Below are positions 5,120 through 12,531 of a DNA stretch of 64,000 bases, piece by piece (position 1 is the first letter of the stretch; each line of letters begins with the position of its first letter). Position numbers and translations under genes: made by a program. Source of the DNA: Halorubrum kocurii JCM 14978 (GTDB lineage: Archaea; Halobacteriota; Halobacteria; Halobacteriales; Haloferacaceae); NCBI RefSeq assembly GCF_000337355.1, contig NZ_AOJH01000040.1, positions 1 through 64,000 of the forward strand, read 5' to 3'. Below the pieces are notes generated by a model. The model did no database searches. It was not told the origin of the DNA and saw nothing but the letters and a program-made list of their open reading frames with translations.

Positions 5120-5776
5120 CTAGACAGCGGTCGCAGAGACGCTCAGACTCCCCGAGATCTCGTCTGTCACCACTCCTTCTAGTGCATTAATAACAAACGA
5201 CACGCCGATCGACTCGCCGGTGGCCAACTGCGCGGTGAGCTGGTCGGTGGTGGTTATCGGACTCGTCGCGAGTCCTTCCCGTGTACCGTTCCCGCTCTGT
5301 GAAGACTGTAGCTCGAAGGCGTACTCGGTGCCGCCGTCGATATCGTCGTTCAGTCTGAAATCCACCGTGACCGACAGGTCTTCCGCAGACTGGTTCACGA
5401 CGGCGAACGCGGATTCGAGGGAATCCTGGCCCTCACTCATGTCCGATGGGTCGCCCTCCGTGACCACGGAGAACGTGTCGCCCGTGATGTCTTCGACGCC
5501 GTCGTCGGTGACGAACGCGCCGAACTGGTAGACTGAACTGACGTTCACGCCGGGATCGTCGTCACCGATCGATACCGTCAGTTCACCGCCGGAATCCATC
5601 TGAACGCCCGCGATCGCTTCGTTGGCGACAAGTCCGACTAGCCCGTCGCTGTCGTCGACGATGTCGATCTCCGCCTGTCGGGAAACCTCCGCAGCGCCGA
5701 ACGCACCGGTTCCGGAAGCCGTGGCTCCCGTACCGACGATCGCTCCCAGCCCGACCACGACGTCACGTCGATTCAT
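5120..5776 (-). CDS. DUF1102-like Tat-exported surface protein (paralogue 1)
   Basis: The 218-residue secreted protein begins MNRRDVVVGLGAIVGTGATAS, a short twin-arginine/SipW-like signal typical of the haloarchaeal DUF1102 family. It is followed by GTGAFGAAEVSRQAEIDIVDDSDGLVGL, the usual start of the mature domain. The remainder is predicted beta-rich. The gene lies 20 nt after a paralogue and is probably co-transcribed with it. Family members are thought to be envelope or fibre-type subunits; no enzymatic residues are visible. Confidence 0.78.
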   Translation of the reverse strand: MNRRDVVVGLGAIVGTGATASGTGAFGAAEVSRQAEIDIVDDSDGLVGLVANEAIAGVQMDSGGELTVSIGDDDPGVNVSSVYQFGAFVTDDGVEDITGDTFSVVTEGDPSDMSEGQDSLESAFAVVNQSAEDLSVTVDFRLNDDIDGGTEYAFELQSSQSGNGTREGLATSPITTTDQLTAQLATGESIGVSFVINALEGVVTDEISGSLSVSATAV

Positions 5777-5796
5777 GGCTGTATCGCTGGCTATAG

Positions 5797-6546
5797 TTAC
5801 GTCTCGGCGTCGGCGTTGGTGAAGTCGTCGTGGCTCCCAGCACGGACGGTGAGGGTACCGCCGAGGTCGGTACTGGTATCGGCACCGCCCACGTCGACGA
5901 GGATTGTGACGTAGAACTGCTTACCAGAGCCGATGGGAGTTGAGTACTGCTGGTCGTCGAAGATGATACTGGCAGACTTGGCGTTCGAGTCTGCGACGGC
6001 ACCGACAGCGAGTCCCTCCTCCTGTTCGGAATTGTCGTCCCCTTCGGGGTAGTACGCGACGAGGAAGAGACGCGTTCCATCCGGGAATGGTTCTTCGTTC
6101 GCGTTGTACGTAACCTCGATAGCCTTCGGGCTATCCGTCTGGTTCATCACCTTGAATGCGTACTCGCTTGAGATGTGAGTCGCCGTGTCGATAGCAACCT
6201 GACCGACCGGCGGTTTCACAGTCGGATCGCCTGGAACCAAATCAATGTTTTGAGAATCAAATTCTCCGAGTCCACCGACTTGGTACGTGGAGTTCGGATT
6301 GACGCCCTCTCCACCGCCGGTTGAGCTGAAGTCGATCATCAGCTCGTTGCCGCCACTCCCACCAGTGTTAGTGACGTATTCAGAACCACCTGCCTCAAGC
6401 CCGATAAGGCCGCTGCTGTCGTTGACGACACCGATGTTTGCTTGCCGACCGTCGAGTTCTGCCGCCGTGAACGCCCCCGTACCTGTCGCGGCCGCTGCTC
6501 CCGAAGCCAATGCACCCAGTCCAATCACAAATTTGCGTCGTTCCAT
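5797..6546 (-). CDS. DUF1102-like Tat-exported surface protein (paralogue 2)
   Basis: This is a 249-residue paralogue of the downstream gene, with the same layout: a short MERRKFVIGLGALASG signal, GTGAFTAAEL, then the conserved IGVVNDSSGLIGLEA start of the mature beta domain. I choose ATG 6546 over GTG 6558 because AGGTGAG sits just upstream as a ribosome binding site. The pair may encode two subunits of one surface structure, since they diverge after the first 60 residues. It heads a two-gene leftward operon opposite the winged-helix/membrane operon at 7.0 kb. Confidence 0.78.
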   Translation of the reverse strand: MERRKFVIGLGALASGAAAATGTGAFTAAELDGRQANIGVVNDSSGLIGLEAGGSEYVTNTGGSGGNELMIDFSSTGGGEGVNPNSTYQVGGLGEFDSQNIDLVPGDPTVKPPVGQVAIDTATHISSEYAFKVMNQTDSPKAIEVTYNANEEPFPDGTRLFLVAYYPEGDDNSEQEEGLAVGAVADSNAKSASIIFDDQQYSTPIGSGKQFYVTILVDVGGADTSTDLGGTLTVRAGSHDDFTNADAET

Positions 6547-6984
6547 GTCGTATCTCACCTGTGTTGGCGCACCCCCGCAACCCGGACGTCCGGGCCGGGA
6601 GCGCTCGAATAGTCCATACGGGGGGAGGTACTTCGTTATGAAATTCTCGACATGTTCGCGTGCCGGCCTCGTTGCGTGACGGGGGCGGCTCGATGCGCCG
6701 AGGGCGCTCCTCGTCGCTCGTATCGTGGTGTGCCTGAAGTCGGATAAACGGCGCCTAAATCCTTTCAGGCGAGAGTTTCGGTAATCAATGACTCCCTGAA
6801 GAGGCGGTCGGGAGTGCGTACCGTTCTCCGTCGCCGATCGCCTGCCCGACGATCAGACCCTGTTCGTGACAGAATATTTACTATCACTAGTTAACTATCC
6901 TACCTATTTATGCCAGAGTATCGCACACGCTACAGGTGAACGACGCCGGTTCCGGGGAGGGAAGTCCGCCGGCGCGGATTCGAG
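6547..6984. other. Divergent intergenic region between the surface-protein and regulator operons
   Basis: About 440 nt without a credible gene. It must hold promoters for both directions. The right part (about 6870-6915) is AT-rich, with several TTTA/TTAA blocks suited to TATA boxes for the rightward operon. No clear operator is recognised. Confidence 0.5.
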
Positions 6985-7584
6985 GTGCTCACAGCCATGG
7001 TCTCTGCCGCTACCACGACGAACGAATCGATCCAAGACGGGGGTGAACTGTCCGAAGAGGAGGTCTTCGAGGTGCTGTCGAACAGGCGACGACGGTTCGT
7101 CATCCACGCGCTCAAGCGCGCGGAGGGCCCGGTCGACGTCTCGGAGCTCTCCGCGCACGTCACCGCGTGGGAGCGCGACATCGACCCGGAGGAGGTCCGG
7201 TACGAGGACCGCCGGAACGTGTACAGCACGCTCCAGCGCACGCACCTGCCGAAGCTGGAGGAGAAGAACGTGGTGACGATCGACGAGGAGGCGAACGTCG
7301 TCGAGCCGACGACCGAGCTCGAGAGCCTCGACATCTACGTCGAGGTCCTCCGGAGCCGGGAGATCCCGTGGAGCCTCTACTACGTCGGGCTCGCCGGCGT
7401 CGCCGTCTCCCTCCTGCTCGCCGTCGCCACCGGAACGCCGGGATTCACCGGGTTCGAAGCGCTCGACGTGGGGATGTTCACCGCGACCGCCTTCGGCATC
7501 TCCTCGGTCGCTCACCACGTCATCGGGCGCCGGGCGCGTCTCGGCAACACCGAGAAACCGCCCGAGCTCCGCAAGGGAACATGA
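6985..7584 (+). CDS. Membrane-anchored winged-helix protein (DUF7344-like)
   Basis: The 199-residue protein has an N-terminal winged helix (about residues 24-105; motif EEEVFEVLSNRRRRFVIHAL) of the haloarchaeal DUF7344 type. Two transmembrane helices follow near residues 133-150 and 155-175, then a basic tail. ATG 6997 is an alternative to GTG 6985. The last codons overlap the next start as ATGA. The architecture suggests a membrane-tethered transcription regulator or sensor. Its position beside the DUF1102 genes suggests it controls that surface module; this is inference. Confidence 0.78.
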   Translation: MLTAMVSAATTTNESIQDGGELSEEEVFEVLSNRRRRFVIHALKRAEGPVDVSELSAHVTAWERDIDPEEVRYEDRRNVYSTLQRTHLPKLEEKNVVTIDEEANVVEPTTELESLDIYVEVLRSREIPWSLYYVGLAGVAVSLLLAVATGTPGFTGFEALDVGMFTATAFGISSVAHHVIGRRARLGNTEKPPELRKGT

Positions 7585-8462
7585 GCGTTTCGACCCGGTC
7601 GCCGCCGGCCCGCATGAGCTCCCTGCGGACGCTGAGCCTCGTGCTCGCGTTCGCGGCGGCTGTCGGGCTGATCTTCGGTACCGCCGGGTTCACCGCGATG
7701 GAGGCCGACCGCGGCGTCACCGCGAACATCACCGACGACGAGAGCGCGTACCTCGGCTACGCGCCGGTGACCGACGCGGTCAGCGACGGGGAGTCCGCGA
7801 CCGTCGTCGAGTACCGCAACCGGTTCGCGACCGACCTCGACGAGTTCGACGTCGACGTGTCGATCGCGGACGGCGCTTCGACGGACGCGACTCTCGAGTC
7901 GGTCGAGACCCCCTCGTCGCTCGACCGCGGGAGCGTCGCCGCGGTCGACGTCACGCTGCGCTGCGCCGAGAGAGAGTCGGTTCCGCTCCTGTTCGAGGCC
8001 GATGGGAGTGGTAGCGGCGTCAGCGTCTCCCTGAATCGCATCCACACCGTGACGTGCGTGCCCGCGGAGCCGACCGTGACGGGGGTCCGATACACGGGGG
8101 TCGGCAACGCGTTCGTCGACACCGACGGCCGGAACGGGACCGTCGAGGCGGTCGTGTGGCTCACCGACGCCGAGCCGGGTGCGGACGGCTCCGAGGGAAC
8201 GCTGCGCGCTGAGACGGTCTCGGCACTGAACACGTCTGCGCCCGTCGGACCGCAGCTCTCGTCCAACGCGTCGAACGAGCGGATGGCGGCCATCGAGTTC
8301 CCCGACCAAGGGGTCGCGTTCTTCCACCCGAGCTGGAACGGGGAGAACCACGCCAGCCCCGGGGCAGGAAGCGGTGTCGCCTTCGGCGACGTGCCGCTAG
8401 ACGCCGAAACCGTTGGGAACACCTCCGTCGTCAGCGACGACGTCGACGACAGCGACGACTGA
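7581..8462 (+). CDS. Secreted/membrane-anchored beta-rich protein of the surface module
   Basis: The 293-residue protein has an N-terminal signal/anchor at about residues 12-36 (SSLRTLSLVLAFAAAVGLIFG) followed by GTAGFTAMEADRG, like the mature start of DUF1102-type proteins. The extracellular part is acidic and Asn/Thr/Ser rich with no catalytic motif. It begins inside the stop of the winged-helix gene (ATGA), so the two are coupled. It is probably another envelope component of the 5.1-8.5 kb module. The exact family is not recognised. Confidence 0.72.
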   Translation: MSVSTRSPPARMSSLRTLSLVLAFAAAVGLIFGTAGFTAMEADRGVTANITDDESAYLGYAPVTDAVSDGESATVVEYRNRFATDLDEFDVDVSIADGASTDATLESVETPSSLDRGSVAAVDVTLRCAERESVPLLFEADGSGSGVSVSLNRIHTVTCVPAEPTVTGVRYTGVGNAFVDTDGRNGTVEAVVWLTDAEPGADGSEGTLRAETVSALNTSAPVGPQLSSNASNERMAAIEFPDQGVAFFHPSWNGENHASPGAGSGVAFGDVPLDAETVGNTSVVSDDVDDSDD

Positions 8463-12189: not shown

Positions 12190-12531
12190 TCACCCGACCG
12201 CGGTGTGTGGTTCCGGAATCGATTCGAGGAGCATTTCGACGAGCTCGTCGCCGTTGTACCGAACCGCCTCGGAAGACGAATCGAAGTCGAGCACGCTGGT
12301 CGTGGCGAGGCTGGGAAGGTGGTTGTGGTGTAACTCGATGGCAATGTCGTCGCGTCCGTCCCGCGTCGCATCCGACTCCCGGAGGTGGCGCGTGATCTCT
12401 CCGACCGGGACGGTGTCCGCCTCGCTTTCCCGCAGATACCGGATAATCGCTCGCCGCTCGGACTGAGCCAACAGCGCGAGTCGCCGGTCTATCTCCTCGC
12501 TGGTGTATGCTCCCATGTTACACACTCCCAA
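12190..12531 (-). CDS. Small DUF7344-like winged-helix protein
   Basis: The 113-residue protein consists of a winged-helix domain only: EEIDRRLALLAQSERRAIIRYLRES, then a wing and HHNHLPSLATTSVLDFD, as in the DUF7344 haloarchaeal regulators. There are no membrane segments, in contrast to the relative at 7.0 kb. A TATA box about 25 nt before ATG 12531 supports that start as leaderless; ATG 12516 is the alternative. It probably binds DNA; the targets are unknown. Confidence 0.78.
   Translation of the reverse strand: MGVCNMGAYTSEEIDRRLALLAQSERRAIIRYLRESEADTVPVGEITRHLRESDATRDGRDDIAIELHHNHLPSLATTSVLDFDSSSEAVRYNGDELVEMLLESIPEPHTAVG

Follow-up and report, generated by a model that had tools for sequence, protein, structure and literature searches.

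The locus described here raises the question of whether a membrane-anchored winged-helix protein controls the secreted surface proteins encoded next to it. The window, by which we mean the whole stretch of 64,000 nucleotides analyzed (Halorubrum kocurii JCM 14978, contig NZ_AOJH01000040.1, positions 1 to 64,000), contains two divergent operons at 5120-8462: one for two exported subunits (genes A and B), and the other for a DUF7344 winged-helix protein (gene C) and an exported beta protein (gene D). C is probably a membrane-bound one-component regulator of the subunit operon, acting via a row of DNA dyads (TTCARGS-N3-SCYTGAA) between the operons. Whether as an activator or a repressor, C would act by binding these dyads, and may sense through D. 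Dyads of this type cluster at the promoters of genes for twin-arginine translocation (Tat) fimbriae (taf genes) in held-out genomes.

Kinship of the exported proteins with Tafi

The four genes were as follows.
5120..5776, minus strand: gene A, Tat-signal fimbrial-type subunit, 218 amino acids (open reading frame; TafE and TafA below cut-off; 33% identity to B)
5797..6546, minus strand: gene B, Tat-signal fimbrial-type subunit, 249 amino acids (TafE below cut-off; B-headed profile against PDB 9p0a)
6985..7584, plus strand: gene C, DUF7344 winged helix with two predicted membrane helices (Pfam; hydropathy)
7581..8462, plus strand: gene D, TafC-like exported, signal-anchored beta protein, 293 amino acids (TafC below cut-off; ATGA overlap; beta-rich model)

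This arrangement confirmed that of the initial annotation, with small corrections to the starts of B (ATG 6546), C (GTG 6985 or ATG 6997), and D (ATG 7581). A and B are in tandem on the minus strand and C and D are on the plus strand, the start of D and the stop of C sharing ATGA, and 438 bp separate the B ATG at 6546 from the C GTG at 6985. All four reading frames were open. The gene caller skipped D in the window and in some orthologues, and this gene was read from the list of open reading frames or by a direct search.

The founding paper on haloarchaeal Tat-fimbriae ("tafi") is reportedly that of Galeva et al. 2025. A and B had been described as "DUF1102-like secreted paralogues". Their paralogy (33% identity across the matched part, E 5e-15) and Tat signals supported this description, whereas Pfam DUF1102 (PF06510) matched neither of them at E<=1. 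Since this domain does match relatives in the same genome (the subunit on contig C82, 5.6e-6; the TafF-like protein on contig C72, 2.9e-6), the term is fair by way of relatives only. Among NCBIfam families, A matched TafE (1.3e-7) and TafA (4e-4) and B matched TafE (2.3e-8), all under the curated cut-offs (TafE: 31.5 and 34 bits of 155 for A and B, respectively); D was also below that of TafC (9.3e-20; 71 of 410 bits). A profile headed by B (54 relatives) detected PDB 9p0a (molecule "Pilin"; entry title "Structure of Natrinema sp. J7-2 Tafi pilus") with an E value of 1.8e-33, compared with 0.0015 for B alone, and this kinship with a solved Tafi pilus subunit supported the proposal of an envelope filament system. 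A and B both have a twin-arginine signal followed by a mature GTGAF start, while D has GTAGF after a hydrophobic, non-Tat signal. The common mature start, also pointed out initially, was real: R3, R4, G22, A25, and F26 were invariant in an alignment of 54 subunits.

The structure predicted for B by AlphaFold (mean predicted local distance difference test score, pLDDT, of 72) showed the best fold match with archaeal bundling pili (7ueg; Z 8.4, root-mean-square deviation (rmsd) 13.8, 151 aligned), followed by 9p0a (Z 7.0, rmsd 12.3, 141 aligned) and then by filament 7pnb of Sulfolobus (Z 6.7, rmsd 4.4, 140 aligned); all three Z scores were middling. The model of D (mean pLDDT 76) had a confident beta core, and its fold matches were only generic immunoglobulin-like ones; a likeness to fimbrial chaperones (best E 1.1e-3; Z about 8 over ~100 residues) was set aside because adaptin ears and sialidases had equal Z scores, indicating a common immunoglobulin-like domain.

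Neither TafF nor a signal peptidase was found among the open reading frames neighboring the window locus; both were present at contig C72 of the same genome. Their use as cluster-defining genes is a reading drawn from the canonical cluster L085. Judged by sequence, the window locus is a diverged paralogue of the haloarchaeal tafi loci, without a TafF or signal peptidase of its own. The absence of these genes and the sub-threshold scores of the subunits may instead reflect a degenerate leftover, in which the subunits are no longer assembled and the regulator is kept for other targets; however, this is very unlikely, given the open frames, the synteny kept in six named genomes, and the TafF-like and signal peptidase genes on contig C72.

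As members of a diverged tafi locus, A and B, both rich in beta structure, would be exported by Tat and built into a thin fimbria, probably with one as its main subunit and the other in an adapter or minor role. D would be a TafC-like partner, likewise exported and translated from the mRNA that encodes C. The initial annotation regarded A and B as alternate subunits; since the main and adapter subunits are distinct in named taf clusters, main and minor (or adapter) roles are at least as likely. In related loci, the subunit genes evolve faster than the remainder of the locus (L047, L129, and L138): quite different subunits occupy the syntenic place in L047, a B-type gene flanks the A-type gene on both sides in L129, and L138 has two B-type genes. 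An exchange of subunit cassettes under virus or host pressure is possible.

Membrane DUF7344 proteins and their linkage to taf genes

C scored well over the Pfam gathering score for DUF7344 (PF24035): 89.3 and 27.8 bits, respectively (E 2.2e-25). A simple hydropathy rule (cut-off of 1.2) predicted membrane helices at residues 127-143 and 155-171 (numbered from ATG 6997), and only one was counted at a stricter cut-off of 1.35. The membrane-tethered DUF7344 winged helix initially proposed was thus supported; the two helices would be in the membrane and the winged helix in the cytoplasm. Pfam at E<=1 matched neither a HAMP nor a sensor domain in C, and there was little sequence between the winged helix and the membrane helices. 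Because of this, and because the loop between the helices is only ~11 residues, an outside signal would have to reach C via the membrane or a partner, the obvious candidate being D, which is co-made with C. Information on export or assembly may then reach C across the membrane or by way of D; sensing through D in particular is put forward tentatively.

The genome of H. kocurii contained 20 DUF7344 matches, eight of which had predicted membrane helices. Three of the eight genes were at taf loci, and five were elsewhere (two each on contigs C43 and C62, and one on C51); no taf-type gene was seen in the stretches around these five or around the soluble ones. One soluble DUF7344 protein (113 amino acids), without membrane helices or taf neighbors, is encoded in the window at 12190-12531. 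On contig C43 (L030:8287-9701), two convergent membrane DUF7344 genes were near sugar-nucleotide/glycosyltransferase-like genes, as judged by eye from their first residues. Of the two further taf loci, that on contig C72 encodes a TafF-like protein, a signal peptidase, and a DUF5305 protein in addition to three TafA/E-like subunits, and that on contig C82 has a single subunit gene. At each, a TafC-like gene comes after a DUF7344 gene with two predicted membrane helices.

The four-gene set was maintained beyond chance: a syntenic locus was found in six named genomes (five Halorubrum records and Halobellus captivus), with DUF7344 in all six, two subunit genes in five, and one called in L045. The closest match of D among the named genomes was in Halorubrum lipolyticum (85%), and C and six orthologues formed a 100/100 group in the DUF7344 tree. 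In the order as a whole (the genomes of which may share species with the named set), TafE family matches (E<=1e-6) were found in 35 of 59 genomes, including that of H. kocurii. Those from the 34 other genomes were grouped by hand into 65 regions, with a duplicate contig match (G050 C15) omitted and the three H. kocurii loci counted apart. DUF7344 (E<=1e-3) was present in 46 of the 65 regions, with two membrane helices predicted in 45 of the 46, and 30 of the 34 genomes had at least one TafE-like region with DUF7344; the two operons, as initially expected, occur together across genomes. In six genomes of the same genus, 16 of 64 DUF7344 matches fell within the 244 kb of taf regions, against 0.8 expected.

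Among 53 membrane DUF7344 genes of taf regions (those of H. kocurii included), 44 were followed by an open reading frame starting at -60 to +200 nt, and 14 had an ATGA overlap with the next gene. A strict N-terminal TafC-like rule, which misses the true TafC of L085, was passed by 34 of the 44 following frames. Relative to the nearest subunit gene (45 assignable cases), 31 were divergent, 11 had the same direction, and three were convergent. In the canonical cluster L085, in which TafA, TafC, TafE, and TafF were all above the cut-offs, the DUF7344 gene was located between tafA and tafC and overlapped tafC. The DUF7344 tree (70 rows) placed 45 of the 53 taf-linked rows in one group (88/86), and the C82-type DUF7344 and some others were outside this group.

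Dyads between the operons and their distribution

The following features were assigned in the gap between B and C.
6581..6594, no strand: palindrome CCCGGACGTCCGGG in the conserved leader of B (1 exact copy in the window)
6635..6641, minus strand: TCATAAC, promoter-like element of B (positional enrichment over 102 upstreams)
6722..6738, no strand: candidate operator dyad, degenerate, 3 mismatches (position weight matrix (PWM) score of 12.1)
6764..6780, no strand: candidate operator dyad, single exact half-site (PWM score of 5.0)
6784..6800, no strand: candidate operator dyad, 2 mismatches (PWM score of 16.0)
6891..6912, plus strand: conserved C promoter, TTAACTATCCTACC then TATTTAT (kept in 12 orthologous loci)

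The dyad array of the window was recognized via the comparison of loci, not from the window itself, and inverted repeats within its own gap were not telling by themselves. K-mer counts in the 300-nt upstreams of 102 taf-type genes (subunits and TafC-like) yielded the half-site TTCARGS: 87 occurrences (2.84/kb) in 50 of the 102 upstreams, some of them double-counted because the upstreams of divergent neighbors overlap, and 0.39/kb in 40 of 430 upstreams of controls from the same regions. Alignment at this half-site revealed a mirrored half-site three bases on, giving the dyad TTCARGS-N3-SCYTGAA. Distances between dyad centers in 87 upstreams peaked at 21-22, 31-33, 42-43, and 64-65 bp (~2, 3, 4, and 6 helix turns). 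The strength of the 10.5-bp phase (R) averaged 0.56 over 41 blastn clusters with one upstream each (0.64 with the laxer non-redundancy filter that these clusters replaced), whereas random placement gave a mean of 0.13 and a maximum of 0.53 in 500 trials. Strong dyads (score >12) were found in 12 of the 41 taf clusters, compared with 8 of 233 clusters of control genes (one-sided p 1.4e-6), an enrichment that is partly circular because these upstreams also served to train the PWM. Among the 38 regions whose DUF7344 belongs to the 45-row group, 29 had a half-site upstream of a subunit gene, compared with 5 of the 13 regions without such a DUF7344 (Fisher p 0.019). In the window, three exact half-sites (6732-6738, 6764-6770, and 6794-6800) were within 69 bp; with 13 in 64 kb, the chance of at least three falling in the gap was p 9e-5.

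Genome-wide, the exact dyad occurred at 10 places in 33 taf-bearing genomes (the 35 with TafE matches minus G038 and G054; one site pair represents a duplicated contig), seven of which were upstream of a TafE match, a proportion that is partly circular because the majority of these sites had contributed to the motif (the G040 site was not among the motif-source sites listed). The reversed pattern had 28 places. In 24 genomes without TafE matches, the exact dyad occurred twice. When one mismatch was allowed, 20 genomes had 86 places for the dyad and 225 for the reversed pattern, and among the one-mismatch matches listed, 18 of 75 fell in taf regions, including one at contig C72 of H. kocurii. 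Since the PWM enrichment and the count of seven out of 10 were partly circular, held-out genomes (outside the first 59) were tested. A scan of 293 genomes gave 59 exact sites in held-out genomes, all of which were examined: 33 were inside called genes and 26 were intergenic. Eleven (11 of the 26 intergenic sites) were <400 nt upstream of a match to the subunit hidden Markov model, against a random expectation of <0.1, roughly estimated from genome sizes. DUF7344 was near nine of the 11 (in L210 at only 4e-10).

Several observations weigh against control by C through the dyads. DUF7344 was absent from 19 of the 65 TafE-like regions. The R value of control genes was 0.33, compared with 0.56 for taf genes, and helical phasing is, therefore, in part general. 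Exact half-sites were missing from nine of the 38 regions with a DUF7344 from the 45-row group, these nine including the canonical clusters L085 and L086, while five of the 13 regions lacking such a DUF7344 had one. The dyads of the window are degenerate and alone weakly above chance: with <=3 mismatches, 16 places were found against 8.5 expected, a number matched by 4 of 100 shuffles. Furthermore, 48 of the 59 held-out sites were away from taf genes, including the 33 inside genes.

On the other hand, L149 (from the first set, in a genome lacking taf genes) and the held-out L156 each had an intergenic exact dyad but no recognizable taf subunits (L149:393-2329 and L156:198-2552, respectively). 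The dyad is flanked by a membrane DUF7344 gene on one side and, on the other, by a gene whose start is twin-arginine-like. Since the dyads were beside membrane DUF7344 genes, a DUF7344 protein is indicated as their binder. These sets may be further exported systems under DUF7344 control. The next gene in L149 encodes a membrane protein with a start that, by eye, resembles signal peptidase. Exact dyads were also observed ~80 nt upstream of a large exported beta-helix protein (L147, about 5985) and 157 nt upstream of large exported proteins (L196, about 2518; L197, about 2508).

C may alternatively be part of the fimbrial base or export machine, its winged helix holding proteins, with an unlinked factor binding the dyads. 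The tight linkage and overlap with TafC-like genes fit an assembly component, and half-sites occurred without a nearby DUF7344 in four regions (L082, L121, L134, and L137). However, the wing and helix pattern of the winged helix was retained, dyads were beside membrane DUF7344 genes even without taf genes, and the alternative factor must be common to many genera yet unlinked, making this explanation improbable. As a regulator, C would bind, as dimers, the row of dyads positioned whole helix turns apart between the divergent promoters, and would thereby control how strongly the subunit operon, and possibly C itself, is expressed. The overall interpretation of the initial annotation held in part, namely the filament system and the linked regulator-type gene. 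A candidate operator between the operons supports local regulation.

In 12 orthologous loci, the leader of B and the core promoter of C were conserved, with little general conservation in between. The ~120-nt leader (6547-6665) had a mean column identity of 92% over seven loci, and its palindrome CCCGGACGTCCGGG was imperfect in some of the 12; it is possibly an element for mRNA stability or control. Of the 102 upstreams, 17 carried TCATAAC at roughly -95 or between -107 and -115, against 0.6 expected. TTAACTATCC upstream of C was rejected as a general operator and counted as part of the C promoter because its strict pattern was found at these 12 orthologous loci and at one other place. The C promoter pattern had one further, unrelated match in L126. 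Scans for sigma-70 promoters and terminators gave nothing over shuffles, as expected for an archaeon. It is highly improbable that the dyads act as RNA or DNA hairpins (e.g., in transcript stability or termination) rather than as protein sites: palindromes are foldable and the leader of B carries a different conserved palindrome, but the dyads of this locus type are ~100-160 nt upstream of the promoter-like element, and so are probably not in the B transcript, and their whole-turn spacing fits a protein on DNA.

Significance and comparison with known systems

Tafi are a newly described archaeal surface fiber, in print since 2025. No account of their control was found in the literature, although the founding paper may contain one; a candidate regulator, partner, and DNA site are now named, and a role is offered for the uncharacterized domain DUF7344. 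Our literature search found no paper naming DUF7344, none joining DUF1102 with haloarchaea, and none with 9P0A, and "Tat-fimbriae" gave one citing paper; the dyad was not met in the literature, with no search aimed at the motif itself. The names TafA, C, E, and F leave room for a "TafB" at the DUF7344 position, and the link may already be in the founding paper. A broader possibility, still doubtful, is that membrane-anchored DUF7344 proteins are widespread haloarchaeal regulators of exported surface fibers, in which phased dyads, bound by these proteins, hold the fimbrial promoter at the membrane next to a co-translated TafC-like sensor. If true, DUF7344 and this sensor would tie expression directly to fiber assembly.

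Tafi are thin surface filaments exported by Tat, with TafA as the core component, as described in a paper citing the founding work (PMC12687288). The window locus resembles them in its Tat-signal subunits with a GTGAF start, its TafC-like partner, and a DUF7344 gene at the same position as in L085, and differs in that all Taf matches are under the curated cut-offs, TafF and signal peptidase do not adjoin, and the D signal is non-Tat. In ToxR/ToxS-type pairs, a membrane-tethered winged helix is co-made with a partner outside the membrane; the likeness to C and D is by layout only, and C differs in having two helices and a very short outside loop.

ArnR/ArnR1 of Sulfolobus acidocaldarius are membrane-bound one-component regulators with an N-terminal helix-turn-helix and two C-terminal membrane helices, and both of two inverted-repeat boxes at the flaB promoter are required for binding by ArnR (PMC6396743). 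Membrane-bound one-component regulators as such are already known. C is alike in its N-terminal helix-turn-helix and two predicted C-terminal membrane helices, and in the paired inverted-repeat boxes upstream of a surface-filament gene, a likeness of domain layout and not of compared sequences. It differs from ArnR in lacking the putative HAMP and sensor domains, in the dyad sequence, in a fiber that is not type-IV-like, and in its linked, overlapping TafC-like partner. These results suggest that ArnR-like, membrane-tethered one-component control of filaments, as in Sulfolobus, may also operate in haloarchaea, on an unrelated fiber.

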